Source of the DNA: Neelides folsomi
Lineage: Eukaryota > Arthropoda > Collembola > Neelipleona > Neelidae
Direction: 5' to 3'
Length of the DNA stretch: 64,000 nucleotides
Assembly (NCBI GenBank): GCA_034687125.1
Contig: JAQGBZ010000121.1
Coordinates: 62,001-126,000, forward strand
Positions 4,262 to 62,600 of this stretch are shown here, piece by piece (the first letter of the stretch is position 1; every line of letters starts with the position of its first letter). Below the pieces are notes generated by a model, which worked only from the letters and a program-made list of their open reading frames with translations, was not told where the DNA came from and ran no database searches. The translations under genes were made by a program, and so were the position numbers.

Positions 4262-5113
4262 ACTGTGAGAAAGTTCACCCTTTTTTTAAAGTGTGCAGGA
4301 GCACCATCAAGCTGGAACCACATTTGACGAATGTCGAATGCCCCGTAGAGAGTTAGTAGAACATCTTCCATCATTTCGAGAAATGATTTCCCATTGATGG
4401 TTCTCTCAAAAAAGAACTCCTTCTATTGTGAGTAAGGCCAAAACGTTCAATCTAAGAGATTTCATTTTTCTCTCTCTTATTACATGTGAATTTTCAATGC
4501 CCCAGAAAGTCTGAAAACAAGCAAGGAAGCATAAGCGGGTGTGGCGGGAACAAGGGTTAAAACATGGTTTAATTGCTGGCAGTTAAGCAAAAAAGCAAAC
4601 CTCGCTATGACCGTTCACTGTTCCGTCTAGTCCGAAAGTAGCCTCTTCTGCCCAAATTATCAGTTCGTGAAAGTTAGGATTTTCCTCCGGGTATTTCAAG
4701 AATTTTTCGGAAAATTGGAGTCTGTTTTCTGGATTTCCTTCTTTCAATTCTTGCACTTAAGATGCATGATAAGGCTTAAATGAAAGCTCCTTTACCATTC
4801 GGAAAAGTGAAGTGTGTGGAATTTTAAGTTCAAAAGAAAGCCTCCTCGTTGAAATCACTTGAGTGGGGTTTTCTTCAATTTTCCCCTTTAGCCTGTTAGC
4901 TTCCGTTCTGACTGTTCTTGGATTTCCTGGCTTTTTATTTTCAACACTTCCTGACTCTTTAAACCTTCTAACCAAATCTCTTACTGAAGAACAATTAGGT
5001 ATATTTGTTTCAAATGGCCAATTTCTAACAACCTCAACTGCACTATTAACTCTAGCGAACTCCTCAATAACAAAAACTTTTTCGTCTTTTGTTAATCTGC
5101 CTCGATTATCCAT
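4262..5113 (-). pseudogene. Decayed Tc1/mariner-type transposase relic
   Basis: On the minus strand an ATG at 5113 opens a frame encoding a helix-turn-helix N-terminal region (MDNRGRLTKDEKVFVIEEF, then SSVRDLVRRFKESGSV and NPRTVRT). This is the DUF4817-like DNA-binding part seen in arthropod mariner-family transposases. The frame stops at 4757. Below that, further family segments appear in shifted frames and between stops: an EATFGLDGTVN segment resembling the first catalytic block, FFERTINGKSF, and WFQLDGAPAHFKKRVN resembling the second DDE block. The order is that of a complete transposase, but frameshifts and stops make it inactive. Terminal inverted repeats were not found by eye. It is recognisable as a transposable-element remnant with good confidence; its exact ends are not. 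Confidence 0.8.
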
Positions 5114-5794
5114 AATTTTATAGAAAAAGGAAAATGAATATGCCAATAATGGAAATAGTGAAAGTCTATCTATCTCAAAAAAAGTCTATCATTTCTCAAT
5201 ATTTCAGTATTTAGTTTGATTGACATTAAAATTAACATATTACCCATCATGTTCCTCAAGTATGAAGATTAAATGTTTAATTTTGATAAAGTTATGCTTG
5301 TTTTTTAACAAATCGGGCTAACTCTGAAACAGTGTATAATCTAGCCTTAATAAAATATCAGCTTCTGTTGGAAATTTCCGATTCTCTTTTTACTACGACA
5401 GTTTGGGCTAAATTAAAGATAGCTGACCGGAATCTTTCCAGGACTAAAATGACGGGAGAGATTTTTTAATTTAACCAATCGTCAGTGAGAAATCTGATAC
5501 GATGTGGGTTTTGTAATGGTGTTAGGAAGAAACACTTTTGAAATATTTTGGAAAGGTTGGCAAGTTTAAGTTGATGACAAACGTTTAGAGACAAAAGTTC
5601 CTATGGAACCGTTTCCGGGTTTTTTCTTTCCTAGATCCCTCCCTCATCAAAACTTTGACTTACAAGGCATGGAACCGAGGAACGAGAGAAATCGGATAGC
5701 GATAGCCGTTTGGACGTCGTTAAGGATCGGGTCGCAAATTCCCAGTTCTGGGTGGGTCGTAGGAATGATTTTAAAAGTTGTCGATCGATTGATT
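5114..5794. other. Intergenic, no gene identified
   Basis: AT-rich sequence between the transposase relic and the inverted exon copy. A locally GC-richer patch at about 5600-5790 has an open frame of 64 codons with no recognisable similarity. It is not called as a gene. Confidence 0.4.
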
Positions 5795-6520
5795 TGATAT
5801 ATATAATTTAAATAATATAATTTAATATATATTAAATATTTTTGTAAAATAATCCAGAATTGACCAAAATGTGTGACACAAATGAACATGTGGGGTGTTT
5901 TGTGTAAATGGGGTATTTATGGGAAAGTAGTGTTAAACGATGAAACCTTCAATGGCCCATTGTCTTCCACAAAGATGGAAAGTCGGCCGGCTATTGTCCT
6001 TTTATTTTTTGTTTTCTGGACTGGTCTTGACTGAGGTCCATCCGTCTCTGATCGATCGATCGGATCAGTCTGAACTGATGTTCCTTTTTAAGTTGGGATC
6101 GACGCCGGGGTCGATTGTCGTTCAGTCATAACTGGAAGAAAGAAAAATGCATTCAAATCTCAAATTAAAATTCACTACACAAATAAAAGCCCAAAACTAC
6201 TCAATATACAATTAACTAATTAACTATATATAAATAACCACGAGACATTTAAACATTCCTGTTAATTAACAGTGTTAATCTCTTTGATTTTTTTAGTACA
6301 CGCCATCCCCGACATGCTCCCGAAGGACATTTGGTCAATTGAGTCAAAAGAGAAAAAACATGAAAAAAATGGTCAATTTGATGTGCAATTTCAATTGATC
6401 AATCATTTCAATACTCAGAATGTTCTCTTCAGGTCCTTTGATTCTAATTGATTAAAGATTGAACATTCTTTTAATAAAAGGGAAAGAAATCAAAATAAAT
6501 AAATCAGTGATTGCATTCTT
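5795..6520 (-). repeat. Inverted duplicate (copy A) of the RhoGAP exon region
   Basis: Read on the minus strand, this stretch matches 59325-60020 on the plus strand with point changes and small insertions or deletions. Shared blocks include the run around GTGTACTAAAAAAATCAAAG with the following GTTAATTAACAGG, the sequence GAACATTCTGAGTATTGAAA, and intron sequence on the far side with CATTTTGGTCAATT. The part matching the 167-nt RhoGAP exon (about 5960-6130) keeps a polypyrimidine acceptor and the QSTPA coding start. It then diverges and meets a TAA stop, so this copy is a broken exon. Boundaries are approximate because similarity fades gradually. The genuine exon is the one at 59693-59859, which fits the phases of its neighbours. 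Confidence 0.85.
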
Positions 6521-7021: not shown

Positions 7022-7267
7022 TACTCCCAAAACCAACCTAGCCGTGCACTTCGGGACTTTAGCGTCATATCAATATTTGAATTTCTCAAAATTCCCTTTA
7101 TACCGTTTTGAACATTTTCTCTATAATTTTTTTCTGAACGGAGTAAAAGATAATTTCGATGTCATGTAAATATCATACGTTCATATTGCTTGAGGCAATA
7201 TGAGACATTCAAATCTTGATATGACGCTAAAGTCCCAAAGTGCACGACTAGGTTGGTTTCGGAAGTA
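7022..7267. mobile_element. MITE-like palindromic element, TA-flanked, ~64-bp inverted repeats
   Basis: The left arm (7022 to about 7086) and right arm (about 7203-7267) are near-perfect inverted complements. Both start TACT-CC-AAACCAACCTAG and continue through GTGCACTT and GGGACTTTAGCGTCATATCAA. The ends fall on TA dinucleotides, as expected for the TA target duplication of Tc1/mariner-type transposons. The roughly 115 bp between the arms encodes nothing. It is a non-autonomous element by size and structure; the parent family is inferred. Confidence 0.8.
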
Positions 7268-13848: not shown

Positions 13849-16800
13849 ATGAAGGGGAACATTCGAGCGAAGATGAATTTGTCTTCCTATTGGATTCCAT
13901 TTTTTATACTCCTCAGCATCGCTTATGAAGCGAGCTCAAATAGCATATTAAAACCGAAGCTATGTTCCAGAACTGAAAAGTATTTCCGATAATTTCAATT
14001 TAAATCAAACTCCAAATTTCAATATTAAAAATATTAATGGTTTTAATGTAAATTTTATTTAAGGTATAACAAGACAGTTCCTGTGTCAGAATCGAAGTTG
14101 ATTCGAGTACGTGAATATGTAGTCTGCTTCGCTATTCCGCCGAGATGTTCTAAATATACTAACAAACATGAGACAATTACGAGAAACGAGGTATTTTTTA
14201 AAATATTATTTTAATCCTACCATATGTTATAAAACGTATATTAAACACAATGTTAGTGTTAAACTAATTTCAAAATTTCTTTAAGCTATCTTTTTTAAAA
14301 GAATTCTTACTATAATTGTATAGACGATCGAAAAGGTTGAATCCGTAGCTGTGTGCTGTGCGAATTATAAAGAAACTCCAGATAAAAAGAAATGTATTCC
14401 CATTTGTGACCCACCATGTAAAAATAATGGGACATGTCTTGAGCCAAATAAATGCAAATGCTCTTCAAATTATGGAGGCCCCTCTTGTGATATCAGTAAG
14501 AAAATTATTCAATTAATCTATAATACATTTCTACATATATTATTCGGAACATGCAATAAAGTATTTTAAAATTACCAATACTTTTAATTGTAATTATTTA
14601 ATTTATTTTAATTTTCTCAATCTTTTTAGTGTGTCCACCGATGAGATGGGGCGAGAATTGTGAGAAAGAATGTCAATGCGCTCATGGTTCCTCATGCGAT
14701 GTTGGAACTGGCGATTGCACTTGTGAGCCAGGTTGGATGGGACAAAAATGCGACAGAAAATGTACACAAGGAACTTTTGGAACCGATTGTAAAGAAGATT
14801 GCAAGTGCAAATGGGGAACTTGTAATCACATCTCTGGCGAATGTATTTGCAATTCTGGATGGCGTGGGCCTTTGTAATTAATAAAATATAAATTTTCAAT
14901 CAATTAATAAATTCTTTTCTAATCTCTCTGAATTATGACTCTAATTTGTTCAATTACTCTTTATTGTAGGTGTGAGGAGCCGTGCCCTGAAGGAAAGCAT
15001 GGAGACAAATGCTCCAACGACTGCAAATGCCAAAATGGTGGAAGTTGTGACCACACGGACGGCATGTGCTACTGCACTGATGGATGGAGAGTATGACTCA
15101 ATTTAAATTAAATATATTGACTCATCTTAATTTTATTATTAAATTATCATAATTAGTAGTCAACGATTAAGTAGAATAATTTTGTAATATTTTACTCAGG
15201 GTGACGTTTGTGCCAATCCATGTCAGAGTGGCAAATGGGGATATCATTGTGAAAGATCATGCGAGTGCTACAACGGTGGTTTGTGCCATCACATCACAGG
15301 TGATTGTATCTGCCCAGCTGGATACTTTGGAAATAAGGTAATTGATCATTTACTTTTGGAATTTGAAATTGAATTATAAATGAATTATGATTAATTATTA
15401 TTTATGTTTACAGTGCGATCGAGAATGTGTCGCTGGAACATTTGGAGTCAATTGCAGTTCTGAATGTCATTGCCAGAACGGTGCCTTATGCAATATTGAA
15501 AATGGAGCATGTGTTTGTGAGCCTGGATGGACTGGACGAGATTGCGATGTGAGGGCTTGTCCAAATGGATATTATGGCTCAGACTGTCAATGTCAATGCA
15601 ATTGCGACAAAAACAACACTCATTTGTAATTTAAATTTAAACTTTATCTTTAAAATGTAAACAATTTGTTATTTAAGTCTTATTTATCTTATTTATCCAA
15701 TTTAGCTGCCATGCAAAGAGTGGCAAATGTGCCTGTAAACCTGGATGGAGCGGAATTGATTGTAAACGACCTTGCCCGGTTTACAATTGGGGAACTGATT
15801 GTCTCAAAATATGCAATTGTAAAAATGATGCTTTTTGTGATCCTGTTGATGGTCGTTGCATTTGCCCATCAGGTTAGTCTAAATCCTGCTCATCACCATT
15901 GGCAAATCCTCATATTAAAGAATTGGCGAATATCTAATGTAATTAATTTTAACTTTTTCATAAATAGGATTCACTGGGCCTGATTGTTCTGAGCGATGTC
16001 CCCAAGGAACGTTTGGCCTTGAATGTCGACAGGTTTGTAGTTGTCTCCATTCGTCTATGTGTCACTCCGAGAATGGAAAATGTGATTGTCAACCAGGCTG
16101 GACGGACATTTATTGCGACAAAGAATGTCCTGAAGGATATTATGGAATTGATTGTAAGCATACTTGCGATTGCAAGAACGATGGAACATGCGACCCTGCT
16201 ACAGGTAAAATTTAAATTAATAAACAATAGTAATTAATTAATTAACATTGTATCAACAACAATTGTAATTAAATTAAAAATTGTAAAATCATTGAATGAT
16301 ACAAATATGAAAAAATTGTCTTACAGGTAAATGCAGATGTCTGCCAGGATTCCAAGGAGAAAAATGTGAGTCATCTTGTCCAGCTATGATGTTTGGAGTT
16401 GATTGCCAAAAGAATTGTTCCTGTGTACGAGAAAATACTAATAAATGTGATGCGACGACCGGGAAATGCATTTGCAAAGAACCTTTCAGAGGTGCGAAAT
16501 TATTTAAAAAACTTAATTTAAATAATTTAACATCTTTGTAGTTAAAATTAACGTGTTTCTAATTTATGAAGTCTTGTCAAGCATTAAAATAATATTTATT
16601 TTTAAAGGTCTTGAATGCGACACTGAGTGCCAAGATGGGAAATGGGGAGAGAATTGTGATAGAGATTGCGATTGTGGAACCGGAACTTGTGATCAAGTTC
16701 ATGGGAAATGTCATTGTCCACCAGGGAAATCAGGAGAAAGATGTCAAGATTTCTGTAGTGAAGGATTCATGGGAATGGATTGCGCCCAAAAATGCAACTA

Positions 16801-18924
16801 CTGCTCAGGTAAGTTGATTTACAAATCTTATTTGTTTTAATTGAAAATCATATTACTTATAAATGATCTTTAATTTTTTTATTAATTTCAGATGGTAGAT
16901 GTGATCCTATAACTGGGAGATGCAAATGTAGAGATACGTACAGAGGTTGGTTTTGCCAATCAAGGTGTGACAGAGACTATTTTGGATCTAATTGCAAACA
17001 AAAGTGCCATTGTAAAAACAAAGGAGATTGTGACCCGAGAACCGGTATTTAAAAACAACAAAATTATGAAAGCCATTTAGTAATAATTTATTATGTATAA
17101 TTAATCCAATTATTTATAATTTCAGGCTTCTGTAGATGCATGCCTGGCTGGACAGGGAAGGAATGTCAACTCCCATGCCCAACAGGGAAATATGGACTCA
17201 ATTGCACTCAAACTTGCCAATGTGGTGAAGGAGGCTCTTGTCGGCCGAGTGATGGAGAATGTCGATGTGTTCCTGGAAGAATGGGACCACACTGCAGTGA
17301 AGGTTCCACTTTCTTTTCCATTTTAATTATTTGATTCAATCTATCAGTTAAAAGCTCATGTTAAATGTAATCTATCTCTATTAATACTACTTTAACGACA
17401 ATCAAATTTTAATTTCTGTTTCAATAGTTTGTCCAGAAGGATTATATGGAGAACATTGCATGGAATCGTGTTCATGCCAACCTGGTAGCATCTGTGATCC
17501 AGAATTCGGATGCAAATCTTTGGGAACCTTTTATGGTAATTAATATCTTTAATGATCAAAAAAGACTCAAAATCATCACTTGGATTAAATTGTCAGATTA
17601 CGCCAATGAGATTGGAGATCAAAGCGGAGGAAAAGACAAAGATTTTATTTGTTTAAGAGAACTTTATGCTCCTGGTTCTCGTACAAGTCATCCGACTACT
17701 GAAGGTAAAATAATTAATTTTTTTCCTTTTGTCTTTCCTATCTTTTGTAGTTAATTACCTAATTAATAATATCCTTTGTTTCAATGAAAAGCGAGCGAGG
17801 GAGGAAAGCAGGTTGGATCGATTGTTGGCGGCATCTTAGCCATCATTGTTGCTCTTGCTGTCGTCTGCATTGTCCTTTATTATCGAAGAAGGATTGATAA
17901 ATTGAAATCAGAGAGTTCTCAAGTTCACTACAAAGCCAACCCTTCATCAGGAGGTATTTAATCCATTACAATTATAATATAAAATTGTAGAGCTTCAGAT
18001 GGAGCCCAATTTGATATTTGAATGTTAAATAGATCCACACCATTTTGATAATCCTGTCTATGCTGGTGGAATGGATTCCACTTTGAACAACATGAGCCCT
18101 CTCAACAACTTTACTTCCCTCAATATCAAGAATTCTCAAATGGCAAAGAGAGGAAAATATTTCGATGACGAAGATGATCTCAGCAATCGAGGTGAGTCAG
18201 AGTTTAAACAATCATATATGAAACCAAATTTATCTGACACTTTCTTATTTCTCATCTGCTCAATCAACTTGTTGATAATTCCTTTCCTTCTCTTTCTATA
18301 CTTAAGCATTCTTCAATTGGCTTTATGGAAAAGGTATCTCCTTCACATCTTTTATTCCTTTAACCTTTGCTGCTAATTTATTAATGCAATTGGGTTGTTA
18401 AAATAGCTATTGATCATAACAATGTAGAGTTTCTAAATTTCATCTACTGTGTAATAAATTTCAATAAATTTGATAAAATAACATTTTAATGTTTTGTGAT
18501 GATCCAGGAGCATGTAGCAGCTCATATGATTACCCATCTCAGAAGAACCATGAAGCTGATGCCCTCAATCCCAATCTCACCAATACAAATATTTACCATA
18601 GTATTGAAGACATGAGTCCCAAAAACGACGACCATCTTTATGACGAAATAACCCAACAGAAATTGAGTGGTAAGAATATTTAATTTAATTATAGTCAATA
18701 TTGAATCTAATGGGATATGTTTAGTGGGAGATGAAGTGTATGACCATCTCAACTACAGTCGATCTTCATCCGAATTGAATCCCAATTACACAAGAGTCTC
18801 AACAATTCCACGTGGCGGAGGAGGAAAAAGTTCTTCGTCTTCGAGAGCAACGCTTTCGGATGTCTTCGGACCTTCTTCAAGCCAACAAGCTCATGAGAAT
18901 CCCTTCGACAAAAACAACTTTTAA
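13849..18924 (+). CDS. drpr: Draper/MEGF10-family phagocytic receptor
   Basis: Single-pass receptor for engulfing apoptotic cells and debris (Draper in Drosophila, CED-1 in C. elegans, MEGF10/11 in vertebrates). Nineteen exons join in frame to 1047 residues: 13849-13979, 14064-14190, 14324-14495, 14630-14873, 14970-15090, 15200-15337, 15414-15625, 15706-15872, 15968-16204, 16327-16491, 16608-16808, 16892-17044, 17126-17302, 17428-17535, 17597-17704, 17792-17953, 18033-18191, 18508-18669 and 18725-18924. The order is signal peptide, EMI domain ([13 protein letters not shown], then AVCCANY), a long array of EGF/laminin-like repeats, a transmembrane helix at about 828-851 beginning [17 protein letters not shown], and a cytoplasmic tail. 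The tail has NPVY (881-884), an ITAM-like Y957HSI-x11-Y972DEI, YDHL (987-990), NPNY (1000-1003) and a terminal NPF. Most EGF-region introns are phase 1. A second ATG at 13873 is an alternative start. Confidence 0.95.
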
Positions 18925-31386: not shown

Positions 31387-34300
31387 ATGATGAGAAAATT
31401 GGTCTTCCTCGCCCTCGCCCTGCCCGCTTGGGCCCTCCAACAATCCCCGTGCCCATGTATTCCAAGGGACGAGTGTCCGAGGGACTATGGGAAAAGTGCG
31501 ACCGACGTTCGGGAACTTGGATTCATCGACCCTTGTGAGGAATATGGGACAGTGAGGTGTTGCGGAGTGACGGTAAGAAATTTAGTTTAATTAACATTCC
31601 TTTAATAATAATATTCCCATTCACCTTCAATTCCAATATCAGTATTACCAATGTAGGAGTATCTTAAATGGCCTTATTTAAGCCTGTAAAGACGTACCGG
31701 GTGTCTTCGAATTTGGAACTCATTAGAACCCATTAAGCTCATGGTTTGGTTCGAGTGGAGAAATTCACTTTGTGCCTGGGGCTTGTTGAGATCGGTTGGT
31801 TGAACTTACAGTTAGGGCGCCTGGAGTTTTATTTTTACACATCTTGACCTGGATCAGACACGAAATGAAAGTCCACCTGTCCTTACAATCATAATTGGGA
31901 GTAAATGTTGGGGAATGAAACAAAGCCCGTTTTTAGATATCCGGAAACTCGGAAAGTTTGTAGAGAACTTTGGAAGATTTTGGCCAAACTCCGAAGGAAA
32001 TGAACTTTCCAAAGTGTCAAACTTCCCACATTTTCCCTTCTTTAATAATTTCCTTCTCTGCCATTTATGAATATAAATAAATATAAAACTGAGGAAAACT
32101 CTTCGGGACAGAGTTGATGAGGAAAATTCTTTCTATTGATTCGCTTCCAAAACAAAGTTTTATGATTAAAAAGGGATTCTTTATGTCATGAACTTTTGTA
32201 ATCCCCACTTATTGCCCAACCAAGTGGAACTTAATGTGAGCATTGATGAGACCAATTCCAAACCTCATTAAAAGCAAGGTTCATTTATTGTTCTGGGAAA
32301 AAATTATTTCCTCCGTTAAAAATGTTTGAATTACCTGAATCCTTTTTATTCTATTTTATTTTTGAAATTAAATGCTTATTTTCTCAGGTGAGCATCAAAT
32401 TGAAAGACGATTCTGAAGACTTCCGAGCCATGGAGGATTTATACACAGCCGAGTCGACCGTAAGTTACAATTACGCTCAGAACTTGAAACCTCGTCGACG
32501 AAACCCTGAAGGGAAATTGGTCGAAAATCCAGAAGAGGTGAAGGCTCCAGAAGTCATTACATGGAAATTGGAAGATGGAGGTCAAAACCCGGCTGAAATC
32601 CCCAAACCCGGGCAATTTGAAAGAGCACGAGCTAAATATCTGAAGCCGTCGTTGAAAACCGCCACTTTACCGAAACAATTCGAGAAGACGAGCACAGCCC
32701 TGAAGGGAATAGCCGGGAGTCGGAGAAAGGAAGAAACATCAACCGAACAACCCGTGCAAGAGATCAAATACCCAGAGCCAACTCCGGAAAATTCCTCTAC
32801 ATCTTTTGCTCAATTGAACAAAGGAGGTCAAATGCGGGTCCCGCCAATTGTGCCCAAAATCAAGCCATTTAATTTGCGAAGATCTCAGATCGGGACTAGC
32901 CTTTTTAAAAGACCGGCTGTTGATCGCCCTGAAGAATCCCAGCCAGCTTCTGATCTCCCCCCAGTTGAGGAAATCCCTTTGAAAGTTACATTGAGGCCTT
33001 TTGTCCGACGGAGGCGTCCTTTGTCCCCGCGCCCGACTCAACCGGTTGAAGTTGAAGGAGAAAAGAATGAAGAAAATCCGGCCCTTGTCTCCCAAACCGT
33101 TGTGAGTGTTGAGCAAAACACCCAGGAAGCTCAACCAGATCAATTTCTCCCGCTCAGTCCGATCAAGACAGAAGGAGGAAGGCGGTTGAGGAAAAGAATC
33201 AGACCAAAACTCGTCAATGGTGTCAATGGGAATTTCCAAAGTCCGTTAGAGGATTTGAAAATGGACAACTCTCCAAGCTCCCCAACGGGATCTGGAGGAA
33301 CTCCCGCTGGGAATTACGAAGAAACTCCCAAACCCATTGAAATCCCTCTGGAAAATGTAAAACAACCGGAAGAGGCAATCGAACCACCACAAGAAGAAAC
33401 CTCTCCGGTCATCAAAACAAAAACTGAGGAGGAGAAACCGATTTTGATCAAAACTCCCACAGAGGAACCGCCAGAAATGGAAAAACCATCTCCAATGTCT
33501 GTTCAACAAATGACCTATGCCCAACCACCACTCCGGATTAGAATTTCCCCCAATTTCTCCACCGATTTCCCTCCAGCTCCATTATTCAAAGAGGAAAACA
33601 TGGATGTGGGGAAATTGATCCGGACTCGTCCGATCCTCCTGGCAGAAAATCTCCCATTACCGAAACAAATCCCAGTCCGACTTTCCAGCCAATATTCCCG
33701 AATCCGCCAGGACAATAACGAAGAAGTGACCGAGGAACGGAAGCCAAGTCGGCGATTCAAAATCCCTGCCCAGCTCCTTCGATCAACAACCCCTGCCTCA
33801 GAAGAGCCAGAAACATACGATGTTGTATTGGACCAAAAATCCCGCCAGCCCCCTCGGAATCGGAATTACCCGATTCGGGGCGATGACTACACGAGGGAAG
33901 AAGGGCAGTCTGAGAATGTTGAAGAAAGCCAAATCCACCAGAGCTACGCACCTGAGGAGAGGAAAAGACCACTCAGACTCCGACTCAAGCCGAAATATGA
34001 AGGCTTTGAAGGGAATCGACCTACTAACCCGAGTGGGATTGAGTACACGGAGAAAGTGGGTCAGACAGGTGGAAGGGTCGCTTCCACGACCCCGACCTCT
34101 GCCGAATCCTCCACGGCCAAATTCGTGTTCCCTCCATTCAGAAAGCCCATTGAGCGGAAGAAGGAAAGTGTGAAATTGGAATTTAAGTACTCGAATAAAG
34201 AAGAAAATGAGGAAACCACTCCAAGGGCCCTTCGTTATCAAATCCCTCCCACCCAGGGAGACCCCCCGACTCAAACAACCCCGCAAGTTTTCCAACCTGC

Positions 34301-35867
34301 AACTTTGCAAACCTTGTCGGTCACCGTGCCAAAGTCAAAGTACACAAGATTCTCCGTTCCAAACAAGTTCGACTTTTCTGTGAAGGGATCCGAAGGGACG
34401 AGCTTCGTCCTCAGTTCCCCCTTCGTCCCGACGACAACTCCGAGGCCTGCGAGGATTAAATTTCCCGAATCCGATCCCCAACAAAACTTCCCGGACAAAA
34501 TCATGACGGAGGTTCACCAGTCGGAAAACGGGACGGAAATCCGGATCACTCAGAAGATGAGGGAAAGCGAGAGGGAAAGACCAGAGGAATCTTCGACCCC
34601 TTCAAGGGAACAAAATCGCCCTATGACTCATATAAGATTTTCTTCATTTGAACAAGACGTCTCTGCCATGAAGCTCAACGAGGAAAAAACCCCCGAGTTG
34701 AAGCCAACCGAAAAAACCATTCCACAATTACCACAAGTTGTGGAAGTCGAAAAAATCCCTCCTTATCAATTCAACCAACCGATAAATGAAGACAAAGAAA
34801 AAGAAGGCGCAAAATTCCAAAGGCCAAACTTTGAAGAGCAAAATTTCCAAAATACGAAGATCGAGAGGCCAAAAATTGAAGGTTCACATTTCGACAGGTC
34901 AAAGTTTGAAGGGTCACATTTCGACAGGTCAAAGTTTGAAACATTAGGTAATCCTGGATCGGCTCAAGATTCCAAGTTGGAAGGTTCCCAATTTGAGGTT
35001 CCAAAGGTTGAAAAATGGGTTCATCCAGAAGTTAAATTCAACTTTTCCTCATTTTCCCCTTCTTTTCCATCACAGGAGTCGAGAGGTGAATGGAAGGAGC
35101 AAAAGCCTTTAAGTTCGCCCTCTCCACAATTTGACAATCAAAGGCCGACTGTTTTGAAAAACGAACGACCAAAAGAATTCCGTCCATTTGAAGAACGTCC
35201 TCAGCAATTCAACTACGGTGGATATAAAGAAACCCCCACGGTACAATTTCAACCCCCGCGTCCATCTCACTACCCGGGAGCCACCAACGACAATAAACAG
35301 CGTCCTTCAAGATTCCCGGTTTCGGATATAAAAAAGTTCATTGATCGGCCCAAAAACCCCGAGGAAAATTACCGCCAACAGGTGAAGCCCTTGAAGTTGG
35401 GTCTTTCCCCCGATGGGCCGATTGGCGGTGGACGACCCCAATTCCCACAACAGTACTATCAAATGAAGCCCAATGGATTCCAACAAGGATTTCAACAACA
35501 TCTCCAGATCCAAAACCAAATCCTCGGTCGGCTCAGAACAAACCCTCGAACCTCCCGAGCGGCCAATTTGACATCTCTCGATCACAATGAACTCCGACTT
35601 GCCAACCTCACCCGGAATGACACGAAGGTCAAGGAATTGGAGAAGAGTTTGATGGCTAAGATCGAACAAGCCCGGAAGGAGGTCAAATCCCCAGAGGAAT
35701 TCCTCGCTGCTCCGCACATTGTCAAAGGGCGGGTGAAGCAAAAGCAAGGAGGGGTTTTCTCCCCGCCAAATAAAATCATCCGCGGGTTTGTTCCCATCCT
35801 TCCTTATAGCGAAAAAGACCCGGGTCCGATCTTCGTCAAAGTCAATTCTCTCCCAATGAAAGTCTGA
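31387..35867 (+). CDS. Secreted clip-like domain protein with very long disordered Pro/Glu/Arg-rich tail
   Basis: Two exons, 31387-31572 and 32388-35867, join in frame (GTG ACG to GTG AGC) to 1221 residues. Residues 1-17 (MMRKLVFLALALPAWAL) are a signal peptide. Residues 22-59 hold six cysteines (22, 24, 30, 50, 58, 59) in a C-x-C-x5-C ... DVR ... C-x7-CC pattern like the clip/clip-like domains of arthropod serine-protease homologues. The remaining ~1160 residues, all in one 3.5-kb exon, lack cysteine and are rich in Pro, Glu, Arg, Lys and Gln. They are predicted to be disordered, with recurrent short basic motifs, a tandem repeat near 34881-34940, and a hydrophobic-ending C-terminus (PILPYSEKDPGPIFVKVNS). 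There is no protease domain. An extracellular-matrix or cuticle role is possible but unproven. The second ATG at 31390 is an equivalent start. Confidence 0.85.
34881..34940 (+). repeat. 30-bp tandem duplication within the coding exon
   Basis: Two almost identical 30-bp units, 34881-34910 and 34911-34940, each encode GSHFDRSKFE. They sit in a wider degenerate series (residue pattern FExxxF/RPKxEG) that suggests past repeat expansion in the disordered tail. Confidence 0.9.
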
Positions 35868-44642: not shown

Positions 44643-48570
<3,928 letters not shown>

Positions 48571-53600: not shown

Positions 53601-56600
53601 ACTAAATAAATATATTATCTTCAGCTATAAATATATTGGAAGCATTGAACATCTCCATATATTAACTGTTAATGTTGTGTGTCTATAAAATAATATTTAT
53701 TATTTTATTCTACATTGTTTTCAGTACTTGTAGAGAGATAAACGACAATTTATAGATAAATACTTTGAAAATAAAAGTTTTATCACTCACATTGACCAAC
53801 TGATTTTTGGTTATCTTTATTGTTATAAGCCCTTCATAAATGAAATTTTGGGAATATATTGGAAATGTTATTTAGGTATACAATGCATAAATAAATGCAT
53901 TTTTGTAATAATTTGATTTTCTCCATTTGTACTAATTCACTTGTTTTTTTTTCAGAGTTAAATTTGGTGTACCTCTCCTTGAAGTATGCAAGAACGACAT
54001 TCCAGGACCTTTACTGGTAAGGCATTAATTAGTTAATTACTAATTGGCATTCAACTAATGTAACATTTTTCATCATTTCGGATCTTTCACTTTTTCATCT
54101 CTGAATTGAATGTGTTTTAATTTCCAAATGGAGGAATTTGAATATTTTTCAATATTTTGTTGATAAATGGATGGAGGTGTTTGAGAGGGGAAAGAATGCG
54201 CCCAAAATAAACTTTCATGTCTTTGGCATTTCACTTTGGTGGTCGGAGGAGTGTGGCTGAAAAAGGATAAAAACCCCTTTGTGGATCTTCCATGGATCTC
54301 TTTGGGAGCTATCTTGGGCCCATAGGGTGGCACACGTGGCCGTCACCCCTCCCACCCTTCTCCATTCATCACAATCAGCTCAGGTGGATCATCCACAATA
54401 ACATAATTCACATTTAAAATTGAAATAATATACTTCAATAGTTATGTCATAGTTTGGATTTTGAACGGCAATCGACTTATGGTTGAAAAACGGGCGGGAA
54501 AGACCAGAATTTAAAAAACCCTAGAAACCCTTAAACATAAAAATAATTTTTATGTTTTAAGATCCAAATTCATATATTATATTTTTGTATATTCTATTTA
54601 TTATAATTTATATAATGCGGTTATAAAGAGTTAAATTTAACTATGTGATGAGTTTTATTTTAGATTTAACAATTTTTAAAACTCTCATGTGTCTGATAAA
54701 AATTGACCCATTTCTCCTCACATGTGCGGAGTTTATTAAAAGCAAGTGACACGCGGAAGGTCTGAGATTCCAATTGTCTATTTCTTCCGTTCTATTCTTA
54801 CTTTGAGTGAGGAATTTACCCAAACGGGTTTGAGTGTGGGAGTGTGGGAAAAGAAAAATATACCGATCTTTTCCCAATCCCTCCCGAAATCACACTTCAC
54901 TTCATATATATCACTTTAAAGATATATAAATGAAATTAAATTGACATACTTGCATTACAAATAGTTTTAATTTACATTTTCCAACCCCTTATTCTTTTTA
55001 TCCATTTCTATTTTGGTAGATTAAATAGTACAATGTATTTTAATGTATTAAATGTATCAGACGGAGATTTGAATTGGAAAAGATTTTAATTTCTTTCTTT
55101 TGATCGCAAACAATGAAGTTTCTGCTTCATGTCTGAGATGAAATTAATATTCACTTGATCAACTCCTTTTGTACTTTTTTGACGAGGTGGGGAGAAAAGT
55201 TAGATACGATTAAGTACGTTCATTCTTCAAGGGATTCGCATTTGATCAATTGTAGGTCCAGGACAATTTTTATGTGAAATGTATTTTTTATTATTATTTG
55301 TAATTGGATATTTATGTATGTACTATGTACTTTTATCATTGTATGGCTACTACATAATGTTATTATTATGCAATTTGGATTTTTTGAATATTTAAGTTTT
55401 TTCATTAAATATTTTATTTTCATATATTAATGGCTGTTGATAAAGTTTGTAAGATTGTTTAGCTCATTGTTTGGGATGATTTGTCTTGGAATTGCTATTC
55501 CAAACACACGTGGAATGTGATGAATGATTAATTGACATCTTGCCAATTGATTGATTGACATGAGAATCCTTTCCAATCTCACAACTCCTTCCATCCATCT
55601 CTAATCCCATCTTGATTCACATCTATTATATCAATCCCGACTATTTGGATGTGATGACCATGAGGGGATATATGGCGATATTAAAATATCATTGTAATTC
55701 AAATATACATTTTGATTTCGACAATCTGTTGTCATTTTCAACTTTCTCAAACTACCCAAAGGACATCTGCATATAGTTGGAGCATTATTAGAATATTATT
55801 TTCCCTTTGGTCTATCAATGTAATTATGTCCATTTAATAACTATACGAGTTTACGAATAATCATTAGTTAATTATAATTATCGACTTCTTATATAACCTC
55901 TTGTAGTAATAAAAATTAAATATTCATATTTCTACCATACACTTGTCAATCGAATTTAAAGGAGGAGAAATGATCTGAAATATTGAAATAATTTTTACAT
56001 GGACAAACATTTTGATTTTCAGGTGATGATTCTTAAATTGAACAAAGAGGCTCCAAAACGGAAAGATGTGTTTCGAGCTCCGGGTCATCAGGGGAACATG
56101 AAGAAGCTCATTTATTTCCTCCAGCATGGGCGGTTGGTGAATATTGAAAACTTTTCTGTGTATACCATTGCCTCCGTGCTCAAAAAGTTCCTTCGAAAGC
56201 TCCCTGAAGGGATCTTTGGCCGAGAGGGAGAACAACAACTATTCCAAATCATCAATATTGAAAGCGTGGAGGAGCAGAGGGACCAAATTCACTCGTAAGT
56301 TAAACTAACATTCTCACATATCAATTAAATAATGAGAGAAACATTTGGTCAGCATATGTATATCATATATCAAATTTGGAATTTGAGACATTTTTGTACC
56401 ATATTGAACAATTGTATTAAAATATTTATTTTAAATATTTATACTGGTATATACATACCTAGGTATGTTACTATGGTATGTATAATGTATATTGTGAAAT
56501 ATTGGATCGGATTTGAATTGAATTTTAAATTATATTTTTTTTGGTGTTTGATTTCTTCCAGGTTGATTTCATCACTGCCAGTTTACACTCAAAGGCTGAT

Positions 56601-59600
56601 TGTTCTGATGTTTGGGACGTTCCGAGTGATCGCTTCCAATGCAGAGCGATTGGAGACAGGAATGACTTCAGAGGCTTTGGGAGTCTCCGTTGCTCCGAGC
56701 TTCTTCCAAACTTGCGTGTCAGATGGGAAACAGGCAAAAATGGAAGATGTGATGAGATTTAAGGTATTTCAAAATCACGCATACATTGCTAATATTACCT
56801 ATTTAACTTTTCCTTCATTCCATTTTTAATAAATTCTTAATTAATTCTTAATTCCACGATCTGATGGTTTTAATTCAATCACATTTTAATATACACATAC
56901 ACCGTTTTTTTTAATAACAAATTCATTTTTTGCACACTTTTAGCACATTTATGAAAAAATAGTTTTAATTGGAACCTGAAATCTAGTCTAGTTATTGATT
57001 ATTAAATCGCTCGATGATTGTTAATTTTCATGCTTGGTTGATTTTTATCAATGGCTTTAATTCTCTATGTATAAAAATGATAGTTTAATTTATTTTCTCT
57101 CTAACAACTTTTTCTTCCTTTCCTTATCTAACTCTCATTGGCTGTTGGGTAAAAAAGGCCGAGGTGGATGTAAGTACCCTTTTCTCTCTTTCTTTCTATC
57201 AACTTATTCAAATGGGCTTTTAAGGTGGAAAATGGCAATTGAGAAGGAAATGACAATTGGACAATTGAAAATGTAGTCTCAACATTTAATTCTTATATTT
57301 TTTATGTATGAATTAGGAATTGTACGGCATTTGTCTCAATATCTTTTCCTGATGGAAGGAAATGTTGAGAAATATGAATTTAATGAATATTCTCAATTTT
57401 CCAGTTGATCAGGGCCATCCCATGCGAATGTCCTTTTTGGTAAATTGGCTTTGTAATTAATTATTCTCTCTTGAGAGTAATTGAGGAGAATCATTGAGGA
57501 GGAAAGAGGAGGAATCTTAAAATCATTTTCATCCATCTTTCCTCTCTTTCAATTTGAACAAATCTTTTCGTTCAATTCTCTCTCAGATCATTCACCATCA
57601 GATTTGTTTGATCAAATTTGAGAATCATTTTACCTCCAATTAGTTATAATTGCCCCAGTCAAAATTTAAATACCAAAGTGGAGATAAAATTTAAGAAGTT
57701 GATAGAGGAATTAAAATTGACTTTGAATATTATTTTTTGACATTATTGTGTTTGTTTGCAGGTTGCAACGAAGATCATGAAATTTCTCATTGACAACTTT
57801 GGGGTGAGCAATTTGTTCGGACGAGAGAATTATGAATATTATGCACGAATCACTGGGCGGATCTTGAAAGTAGAAGAAGATTGGATCTTTAGCTTTCGCT
57901 ATCCGCCGGACGCCCTCGTCTCACGTAAGTCGCCCATATATTAAATTGAAAAATCCTTTAGTGTCCATGGATATAAACCTTATGAAAAATATGTTTATTT
58001 TGGGAATAATATTATTTACATTAGGTAAAATATGGGGAAATATAAAAGTATAATAAATATATGTGTATATGGACAACATGGGATATTCGTCGTATTATAT
58101 AAAATGTCTCCAAGGAGCCGAAGGATCTTGATGATTTGAATACAATTTGAGTCCTTGGCATTTCCCTTTCCAACCCCAAGGATGAAAATGATCTGAGGAG
58201 TCATTTGTTCCACCGGAAGTCTTTTCATGAGCTCTAATGGATTCTTTTCAATATCATTTATTTTACCATCCACTCACTCAGAGAACAATAAGGGAATTAT
58301 TTGAACCCGCTCATCATTTTATGACCATGTGGACAATAAATATTATTTTAATAATAAATATTTGTCCAGGCTTTAACCAACAAATATTTAGAACAAATAT
58401 ATGGGAATATTACATATATGTATTGATGTAAGTGTATGTATAGATCATTTATGCCCAAAAGTTAGAAATATTTAGGTAAGAGAGAATTGGACCAGTTTGA
58501 TATCATTTTATTTTCCAAGGAAAAGGGTCAATTGAATTAGCCAAATTTTGCTTTCACTTTGTTGCTCATTCAATTTGTATGTCTGACAATTCATCCACGG
58601 CACGTCCAATTATTTCCCATCATTATTATTTTACTCGACAATTTCAAAATGTTGGGGTTTTTTGAAAGTTAACCAAGGTGGGACTTTTATGATTGATAGG
58701 CCAAATTTCACTTGAGGCAGAAAAAACGTGGTTGCAGTTTGAATCGGAGAGGTGGGGTCTCAAATTCAATTTGGAAGGTAGTAAAACAAATTGACAAAAT
58801 TTCGCCTTTTTACTTCTTTTTCAAAAAAAGGTTCATTTTGATGCAAAAAGTATCAATGTGAGAATCATCTCCAATTCTTCTAAAAATCTAAAGAATTTTA
58901 GCTTTTAGTTTCATGTATAATACTTTGCCCATTTTCGATTCACTCTTTACAGTAAAATGAGTATTTTTTTACAAAATGTTAATATACTTATAACAATACA
59001 TATTAAAATACGATATGATATTGTTATTTTTTATAAAATCTTTATATTATTAGTATTTTTAAAATAATTGAAATTCCTATTTTCAACATTTCCCAATATT
59101 TGTCTTTTTGTGTAATTAATTGTTCAGTCTTCTCATTCCATTAATTTAATATTTGTGTCCAATAAGGATTACACGAATTTTGTTTCTGCCTTAAAACTCA
59201 ATGTTTATTAATTTCTTATGTTTGGAGTCAATTTGATCGTCTTTTCTTTGCATAGCCACTTTTAAAATATTAACCTTGGTATTCAAATTTTCATTATTTT
59301 TCTTCTTACTTTGAGACTTTTATTGATTGATCACTGATTATTTTTTTGATTTCTTTGACTTTTATTAAAATGGTTTTATTAAAAGGATCTGAAGAGAACA
59401 TTCTGAGTATTGAAATGATTGATCAATTGAAATTGCGCATCAAATTGACCATTTTTTTCATGTTTTTTCTCTTTTGACTCAATTGACCAAATGTCCTTCG
59501 GGAGCATGTCGGGGATGGCGTGTACTAAAAAAATCAAAGAGATTAACACTGTTAATTAACAGGAATGTTTAAATGTCTCGTGGTTATTTATATATAGTTA

Positions 59601-62600
59601 ATTAGTTAATTGTACATTGAGTAGTTTTGGGCTTTTATTTGGGTAGTGATAATTTTAATTTGAGTTTTGACTGAATGTTTTTTTTCTTTCAGCAATGTCT
59701 CAACAAGAAGAGAGCCAATCGACCCCCGCGTTGATCCAAACTTCCGATCGGGTGGAGACGGAGGAACCAAGCTGCTCACTCACCATCATTCCCGAAAACA
59801 ATTTACTGGACAATTACACCCGACTTTCCATCTCTTTGGAAGACAATGGGCTGTTTAAGGTTTCTTCATTTAACACTACTTTTTCATAAATACCCCATTT
59901 ACACAAAACACCCTTCATGTTCATTCGTGTCACACATTTTGGTCAATTATGGATTATTTTACATAAATATTTATATATATATATATATATATATAACTAT
60001 ATTATTTAAATTATGTACCTTTTATATTTAACTTTTGTTATTCACATTTTCTAATTTTCTAATCATTTGTTTATTTTTTAACCATTTGCCTTATATATTA
60101 TTATTATTATATTGATGTTTACCTATTTATGACTTTAAGTATTAATTTACCTCATAATAGTCGAGATTGTCGTTACCATTTTCTGAGTACAATTTTGATG
60201 AATGATGATTTGATTTCCAGGAATATATTAACTTATGAATATGATTTAATTAATAAGCATGGAGTTTATAAATTATTAGTTTTTCAACTCTCAACTTTCT
60301 CTCGTTAATTTGAGGAATTATTCAATTGGCCCAAATGGCTCAACATGTTTCATCCAAACTCCTTCCATCCTTTCATTTCTATTATTGATAAAAAAGCATT
60401 TAATGTTATATAATTCAACTATATTAGGAAATTCAACATGTTTAAAACAAATGTTCAAGTAAATACTATATTAGCAATGGAGTAACCAATATTGAGGAAA
60501 TGTAATTTTAGTAAATCTTTAGAGTAAAAATCTCGATATTATTAATTGCAAGGATTTTAATTACAATGACTTGGATCAATTGGTGGAAAGATAATGAGTA
60601 AAGCAGTATGATTGTATGATAGCATTATAAATCTTCCATTACTTTCGCTTATTCACTTTCCCCATTATTTTCATTTTCCTTTTTATATTCGTTAATTTGT
60701 CATTAGGAAAAGTTTTACATATTTGTTAACATTCATCCCACATGCTTTTACACCAGAGTTGAGAAAGCGTAGAATTAATAGCAATAATTTTAATTTAGAT
60801 CAGCTTTGTATTCCATAATTGGTTTATTGGTGGTAATGACTATGTAGAGGCAAATGCTGAGTATCGAATCATTTCCACAATACTTTCAATAATTTCCCAA
60901 GGTCCTAAATCTCCCTAAGGTCATTATTAGTCAATTGTTTTACTTATGCACAGGAGTCATTCGAGGAGTCGGCTCGAAGCTCTGCTAGTACCAATTGTTC
61001 GAGTACGAGCTTGAGAATGACTCTGGACGAACTCAGAGCTGTCAATCATTCCGCAGAACTTACTAAGAGCCTTTCTTTCTTGCCCCAGGTATTGATATAT
61101 ACAAAATATCAAAATTCATTCCGTCACAACTCTCAGGTTCAATTTGCAAAAAATGCGTCAATTTAATAATATCGGAAGTTGTGAATTGGACCAATTGTTG
61201 TGACGAGAGTGGTAAGATGTTTGCATAGTGTCGTGTATAGTCCGGGGCTTTTTTCGTCTCCTTGTTGAGGAATGAAAAGAAGTCGTTGAATGCATTTGTT
61301 TGCACTTGAAGCTCCCCCCTTTCTCAAATAAATACCTACACATATTATAAGTATCTCGGTGATTGAAGAGGCATTTGAGGTAATGGACAAACTTGCGTCA
61401 TTTTTTTAATTCCACCTTCAATCACACCCCTTGGAGTTGAAAAGAGATTGAACGGATTTCCCTATAAAAATTCCCAAAGAGTCCCTGGGGACTTAAAATC
61501 GGGAAATGTGGAAGAATTGACGGAGTTGAGAAGCTTGAAATCAACGCCAGTTAAACTAATAGGTTTGTTCCCCCTTCTTATTACCCATTTACACATATTT
61601 GCTTGAGAGTCGAACAATTTGGGAAAAATAAGTTTTTTAAATTGAATTATGTAAATTATCTAACTCAACTTTCAACTTTCCCATGAGTTTGGGAGGAAAT
61701 TCTGGGAAATGGTCTTTATGTGAAATCAGCGAGCTGAGGGGATTTGACATCACTTCACTGCATGCGAAATAATAATTTAATGATCATCATCCCCTGGATG
61801 TTTTTTTCCTATCTAATAAATGCCCCTAGTCTCTCCAACTTGTTCGTCCGGAAATTTAATCGCCCTTGATGTAACTATTTTTAAATCCCGGAATGATCCC
61901 AATCCTAAACGATTTCCGACCTTTCCTCCCTGCATGAAACTTTGGATTTTTCTCGCTAACAATTACCTTTAATGCCCGTGCTTGCAATCATATTTAATAC
62001 CTTTGCTTGCAATTATTTTTAATTCCCCTTTATCCCCCCTGTTGATTCCATCACGGGGAAAGGAGTTTTTAAAAATCTCGAGAGGAATCTCACGGCACAC
62101 AAATTGCATTAGAGGAGATTTATATATATACAACTTTCCACCTCTTTTCACCTGTTGGCTCCAATGAGCCCAACAGGTGGAAAGTTGTTTGAAGTTGTGG
62201 GACTTTTGAAGTTTGATCGTGGAATGTTTTGTAGATTAATTAGCTTTCACTGTGTGTCATTCCATTTGGGATCTGATAATTAGTTGCATGGTTGTCCAAT
62301 GTTCCCATTCTGTTTTTGAAGGGAGTCTTGAGGGTTTTGAGTGTTAAGATAACTTGGTTGGATTGACAGGTTCATGAGAGACAGGCAGCTCGGATGAAGA
62401 CGAGATCTGAATGGTTCCTCTCACCCTCTCCAGGGCCCAAAGTCCCTCACGTGGACGGATCTCCGGCCCAGTACTTCATACTCAGAGAGGAGGCCATCGG
62501 AAACACCCGAGGTCTTTTAATTAAAACATTTAATTTAATGAATGTCCTTGTTCAACCCCATGGTTCAATTCCAGGAGTTGGGAGCGCGTTCAGTTCGAGT

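Follow-up and report, generated by a model that had tools for sequence, protein, structure and literature searches.

A predicted RhoGAP gene and other features of the window

The window is the whole stretch of 64,000 nucleotides from Neelides folsomi that was analyzed here. On its plus strand, an ORF at 55987-56298 includes an exon encoding part of a RhoGAP domain (PF00620, E 3.5e-15), and when three exon pieces were joined, the best solved relative was Rho GTPase-activating protein 20 (E 8.6e-12). From the third joined piece onward, one open frame runs across an exon ending at 57924, a 167-nt exon at 59693-59859, and a putative exon at 60954-61088. The first of these is represented by its end part, 57759-57924, of which the start is set by codon score and not by a determined splice site; it ends in phase 1, with the donor GTAAGT at 57925. 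The last, in frame and in phase 0, was placed by codon usage and the frame chain. The 167-nt exon between them lies in a segment (59330-60017, plus strand; copy B) that recurs inverted at 5800-6511 (minus strand; copy A), and this pair is the subject of the present analysis.

When the 167-nt exon is omitted, the frame of the tested three-exon chain hits a stop. Its codon-usage score is 15.6, with the same frame favored, under a rough model that was trained on 2092 codons of the window and to which many other segments also respond. Because its ORF gives no Pfam match, the exon lies outside the RhoGAP domain itself. The preliminary description had called it a RhoGAP exon, which holds for the gene to which it belongs but not for the domain, since the exon sits downstream of the domain-encoding exons. 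Taken together, the domain match of the upstream exons, the reading frame, and the splice phases support copy B as the site of a normal internal exon of a predicted plus-strand RhoGAP gene. A genome search at the protein level placed this exon in one location, its own, and copy A was absent from the matches.

Several other features were recorded in the window. An ORF at 4757-5185 (minus) has a weak, sub-cutoff match to a helix-turn-helix family (DUF4817, E 0.0016, 18.5 versus 22.6 bits), which we take to suggest a decayed mariner-like transposase. A single open frame of 1205 amino acids at 32250-35864 gives only weak Pfam matches under the cutoff (best E 0.0099) and includes a 30-bp tandem repeat at 34861-34940. 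A Transferrin-family ORF at 46795-47739 (minus; PF00405, E 1.4e-22) has a proline- and asparagine-rich stretch beyond its best-matched part, and repeated segments at 14632-17510 (plus) are ∼40% identical to one another at the protein level.

The inverted pair and the exon in copy A

BLASTN of the window against itself returned three inverted pieces: 6132-6439 versus 59692-59382 (96% identity; the best E among the three, 3e-143), 5815-5986 versus 59994-59820 (90%), and 6469-6511 versus 59370-59330 (91%). The pieces are collinear, spanning 5815-6511 versus 59994-59330, and represent the sole long dispersed inverted pair in the window. A global alignment unites them; similarity ends at both sides, and the outer flanks of the two copies are unrelated. 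The genome search gave 81% identity overall for a continuous collinear match of 5800-6511 (minus) to 59330-60017 (plus), so that the span proposed in the preliminary description, 5795-6520 versus 59325-60020, proved right to about 10 bases on pairwise alignment. The copies lie ∼53 kb apart on the same contig. Searching all 840 contigs of the genome (75.1 Mb) with the copy gave two places, namely copies A and B, and the same two were returned by searches with the upstream intron block and with the downstream part; very common words are skipped in this search, and all place counts are therefore lower bounds. Two long collinear inverse matches far above chance, found at two genome places (a lower-bound count) and not as members of a dispersed repeat family, constitute an inverted segmental duplication.

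What was copied, besides the exon, is intron sequence on both sides of it. The preliminary description held that both flanking introns were included; only their exon-adjacent parts are, ∼0.36 kb of the 1.77-kb upstream intron and ∼0.16 kb of the 1.09-kb downstream intron, the intron lengths being those given by the splice sites of the tested exon chain. We found no indication of a larger duplication involving other exons. A self-comparison covering 162 kb of the 164-kb contig (BLASTN, E up to 1e-6, dust on) gave no further pair of 100 bp or longer, shorter pairs being present. There was no other DNA match between the left and right sides in the contig, and a protein-level comparison of the two sides gave nothing convincing beside the pair among its best 40 matches. 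Copy B ends outward in an AT-rich, partly self-complementary tract (59958-60013) that matches its own reverse complement at 88%, and another AT-rich tract occupies the corresponding edge of copy A (5792-5832). The tract in copy B may mark a breakage-prone end.

The exon has fared differently in the two copies. Its counterpart in copy A, 6131-5947 (minus), measures 185 nt and not the 167 nt of copy B, the one length that the preliminary description had given, and it keeps the border AG and GT. Stop codons interrupt all three of its frames. The frame of copy B has a single TAA, at codon 14, which bears out the earlier report of a gained stop; the net length change of 18 nt keeps the frame. Of 149 aligned bases in the two exons, 37 are mismatched, 11 at first, 14 at second, and 12 at third codon positions, and because of this even spread, the comparison gives no sign of purifying selection on the copy A exon since copying. 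Given the stops in all frames and the even mismatches, 6131-5947 is best called a pseudoexon. Read across its stop in the old frame, it still has a codon-usage score of 9.0, which, along with the frame-keeping length change, makes a past spell of coding use conceivable. No present function is needed to explain copy A.

Copy A is flanked on the minus strand by two putative exons, at 6644-6580 and ∼5746-5664, chosen by eye from their codon scores (6.2 and 9.8). Neither has a Pfam match, the best PDB match has an E value of 2.1, and a search of the genome turned up nothing but the exons themselves. As nothing identifies them, it is no more than a guess that copy A sits inside an intron of a putative minus-strand gene. 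Adjoining copy A is a foldback element (7022-7267) with 67-bp inverted arms that are 91% identical to each other. It recurs widely across the genome (30 scored candidates, with 71 matches in both orientations) and is named here a MITE-like repeat from its form, not from a library match.

Uneven identity between the copies

Divergence between the copies varies sharply along their length. With gaps left out, the upstream intron (59381-59661) is identical at 274 of 279 aligned bases and the downstream intron at 113 of 124 (91%), versus 112 of 151 (74%) in the exon, where there are four gap events; the preliminary observation that the flanking introns are more alike than the exon is thus upheld. 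At the outer edge, 41 of 50 bases are identical. Expressed as K2P distances, the outer edge stands at 0.21, the intron block at 0.016, the acceptor side at 0.13, the exon at 0.32, and the downstream intron at 0.10. In one upstream intron stretch of 260 bp, the copies differ at 4 positions. Identity is unbroken over at most 177 bases, and there are 2 mismatches in the best 246 aligned columns. Neither value was reached in any of 20,000 permutations of the mismatch positions, a procedure that treats sites as independent. These columns correspond to 6181-6426 in copy A (minus) and 59395-59640 in copy B (plus), which are 99% identical.

A bounded block of raised identity within an otherwise more diverged duplication is the pattern of interlocus gene conversion. 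Because the block is sharply bounded and nearly identical, it is probably the tract of a later conversion between the copies, and conversion is the simplest cause of the uneven identity. In the parts consulted of a review of conversion among Caenorhabditis paralogs (PMC3966223), surviving tracts are mostly 50 to 200 nt long and can reach into introns; the block described here, at ∼250 bp, falls inside the size range given for tracts and resembles them in its sharp bounds and near identity. Unlike them, it is intron-only and shared by inverted copies 53 kb apart. The same parts of the review mention one study in which conversion declines with distance and prefers the same orientation, state that introns may impede conversion, and caution that the distribution of identical bases alone is poor ground for calling it.

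The exon has 39 mismatches in 151 bases, a higher rate than the 26 in 220 of the intron beyond the tract (p 0.0008), and a single age for the duplication plus one conversion is insufficient to explain this. The excess calls for a second, older conversion in the downstream part, faster change of the exon in copy B, or misalignment around the indels, and is only partly explained at present.

An alternative reading of the block is that it represents a regulatory DNA or RNA element selected in both copies, with the exon as a passenger. In its favor, 2 mismatches in 246 aligned columns contrast with differences of ∼10 to 30% in the neighboring parts. However, the window has no Rfam match at the gathering threshold, and the copy B block folds unremarkably as RNA on both strands (z 0.12 and -0.61); a structured RNA or known RNA family thus had no support. 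A 61-codon antisense ORF in the block likewise lacked support as coding sequence: an ORF of equal length arose in 259 of 1,000 shuffles, and there was no Pfam or PDB match. Searched against the genome, this ORF hit its own location in copy A, then copy B (95%, with two stops), and one insignificant match (E 8.5). No third genome place was found for the block, the place counts again being lower bounds. We consider a selected element improbable.

Origin of the pair and its meaning

The preliminary description had inferred duplication at the DNA level as opposed to retroposition, and this stands: intron sequence lies on both sides of the copied exon, and the genome search gave no third place. In a retroposed copy the introns would be absent; here they are present in part, and retroposition is excluded for that reason. 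A mobile element was also rejected, since the genome search found two places (a lower-bound count).

Inverted duplication from copy B to copy A followed by conversion is the simplest reading of the pair. A 0.7-kb piece, comprising the exon and adjoining parts of its introns, would have been copied as DNA and inserted in inverted orientation at a site ∼53 kb away, probably during break repair. The presumed direction is from B to A, and the exon at A would then have decayed into a pseudoexon; later, ∼250 bp of the upstream intron of one copy would have been overwritten by the other. A repair-borne copy of B at site A fits the locus, since the gene that holds B requires it. We regard this account as a whole as fairly probable. 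It places the pair among dispersed inverted partial-gene duplications, with which it shares an intron-carrying DNA copy in inverse orientation on the same contig and the decay of that copy. There is no fundamental difference, the present case being short (0.7 kb) and limited to one exon.

A rival of some weight treats copies A and B as the breakpoints of a fixed 53-kb inversion made by staggered breaks: the overhang from one break would have been filled in at both ends, so that one 0.7-kb sequence came to lie inversely at each breakpoint. The same sequence is indeed duplicated inversely at both ends of the segment, and in the global alignment copies A and B have the geometry expected of staggered breaks. 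Passages of two reports on Drosophila subobscura (PMC5080602 and PMC7584159) give, as the footprint of this mechanism, duplications in inverse orientation at either end of the inverted arrangement, and the present pair resembles those breakpoint duplications in geometry and in a similar duplicated size. For one D. subobscura inversion, overhangs of 58 and 534 nt are discussed; the authors of that passage regard this inversion as not typical and note that repair alone could also yield its duplications (PMC7584159). In contrast to the breakpoints treated in these passages, the RhoGAP gene across copy B appears uninterrupted. The model would make one side of the gene at B new, but the exons to the left and right of B share a strand and a reading frame and look coding-like, and when the two sides of the window were compared as protein, nothing beside the pair stood out among the best 40 matches. 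An apparently intact gene across copy B counts against a staggered-break inversion, though not decisively, and we hold this origin to be rather doubtful.

It is very unlikely that the pair is a live recombination site, at which repeated exchange homogenizes the intron block and at times inverts the 53 kb. A crossover between copies A and B, as raised in the preliminary description, is possible in principle and would invert ∼53 kb; given the anatomy of gene and copies, it would split the RhoGAP gene, cutting the domain-encoding exons (inside) from the downstream exons (outside), a consequence that the description had not mentioned. If the site were live, the RhoGAP gene would exchange its 5' and 3' parts with those of the putative minus-strand gene around copy A (6644-6580 and ∼5746-5664), and an inversion polymorphism would be a gene-fusion polymorphism as well. 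In the sequence examined, there is no sign of an inversion event between the copies. The division of the assembly into 840 contigs could raise the suspicion of an assembly artefact, either in one copy or in the near identity of the intron block. Substitutions and indels run along most of both copies, however, with two differences even within the block, and the outer flanks of the copies are unrelated; an artefact is accordingly extremely unlikely.

The preliminary description had also suggested that the two copies might pair as a very long hairpin in a transcript. Read on the minus strand, however, copy A has the sense that copy B has on the plus strand, so a minus-strand transcript through A and the plus-strand RhoGAP transcript could not pair here. 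A single transcript through both would have to traverse ∼53 kb in which each strand has family-matched ORFs (POLO box, Arf, and acyltransferase on plus; transferrin on minus), which makes such a hairpin unlikely.

An inverted duplication that carries one exon and portions of its introns is confirmed, and it is a new example of known processes. Together with its probable conversion tract, it is an event of a known kind and only mildly unusual, and as the evidence stands, it alters no general view. Were the pair the footprint of an inversion, it would account for a rearrangement in this lineage and offer an inversion-prone site open to testing. Read as a duplication followed by conversion, the locus would provide a compact case of a gene fragment that was copied, decayed, and in part homogenized again.
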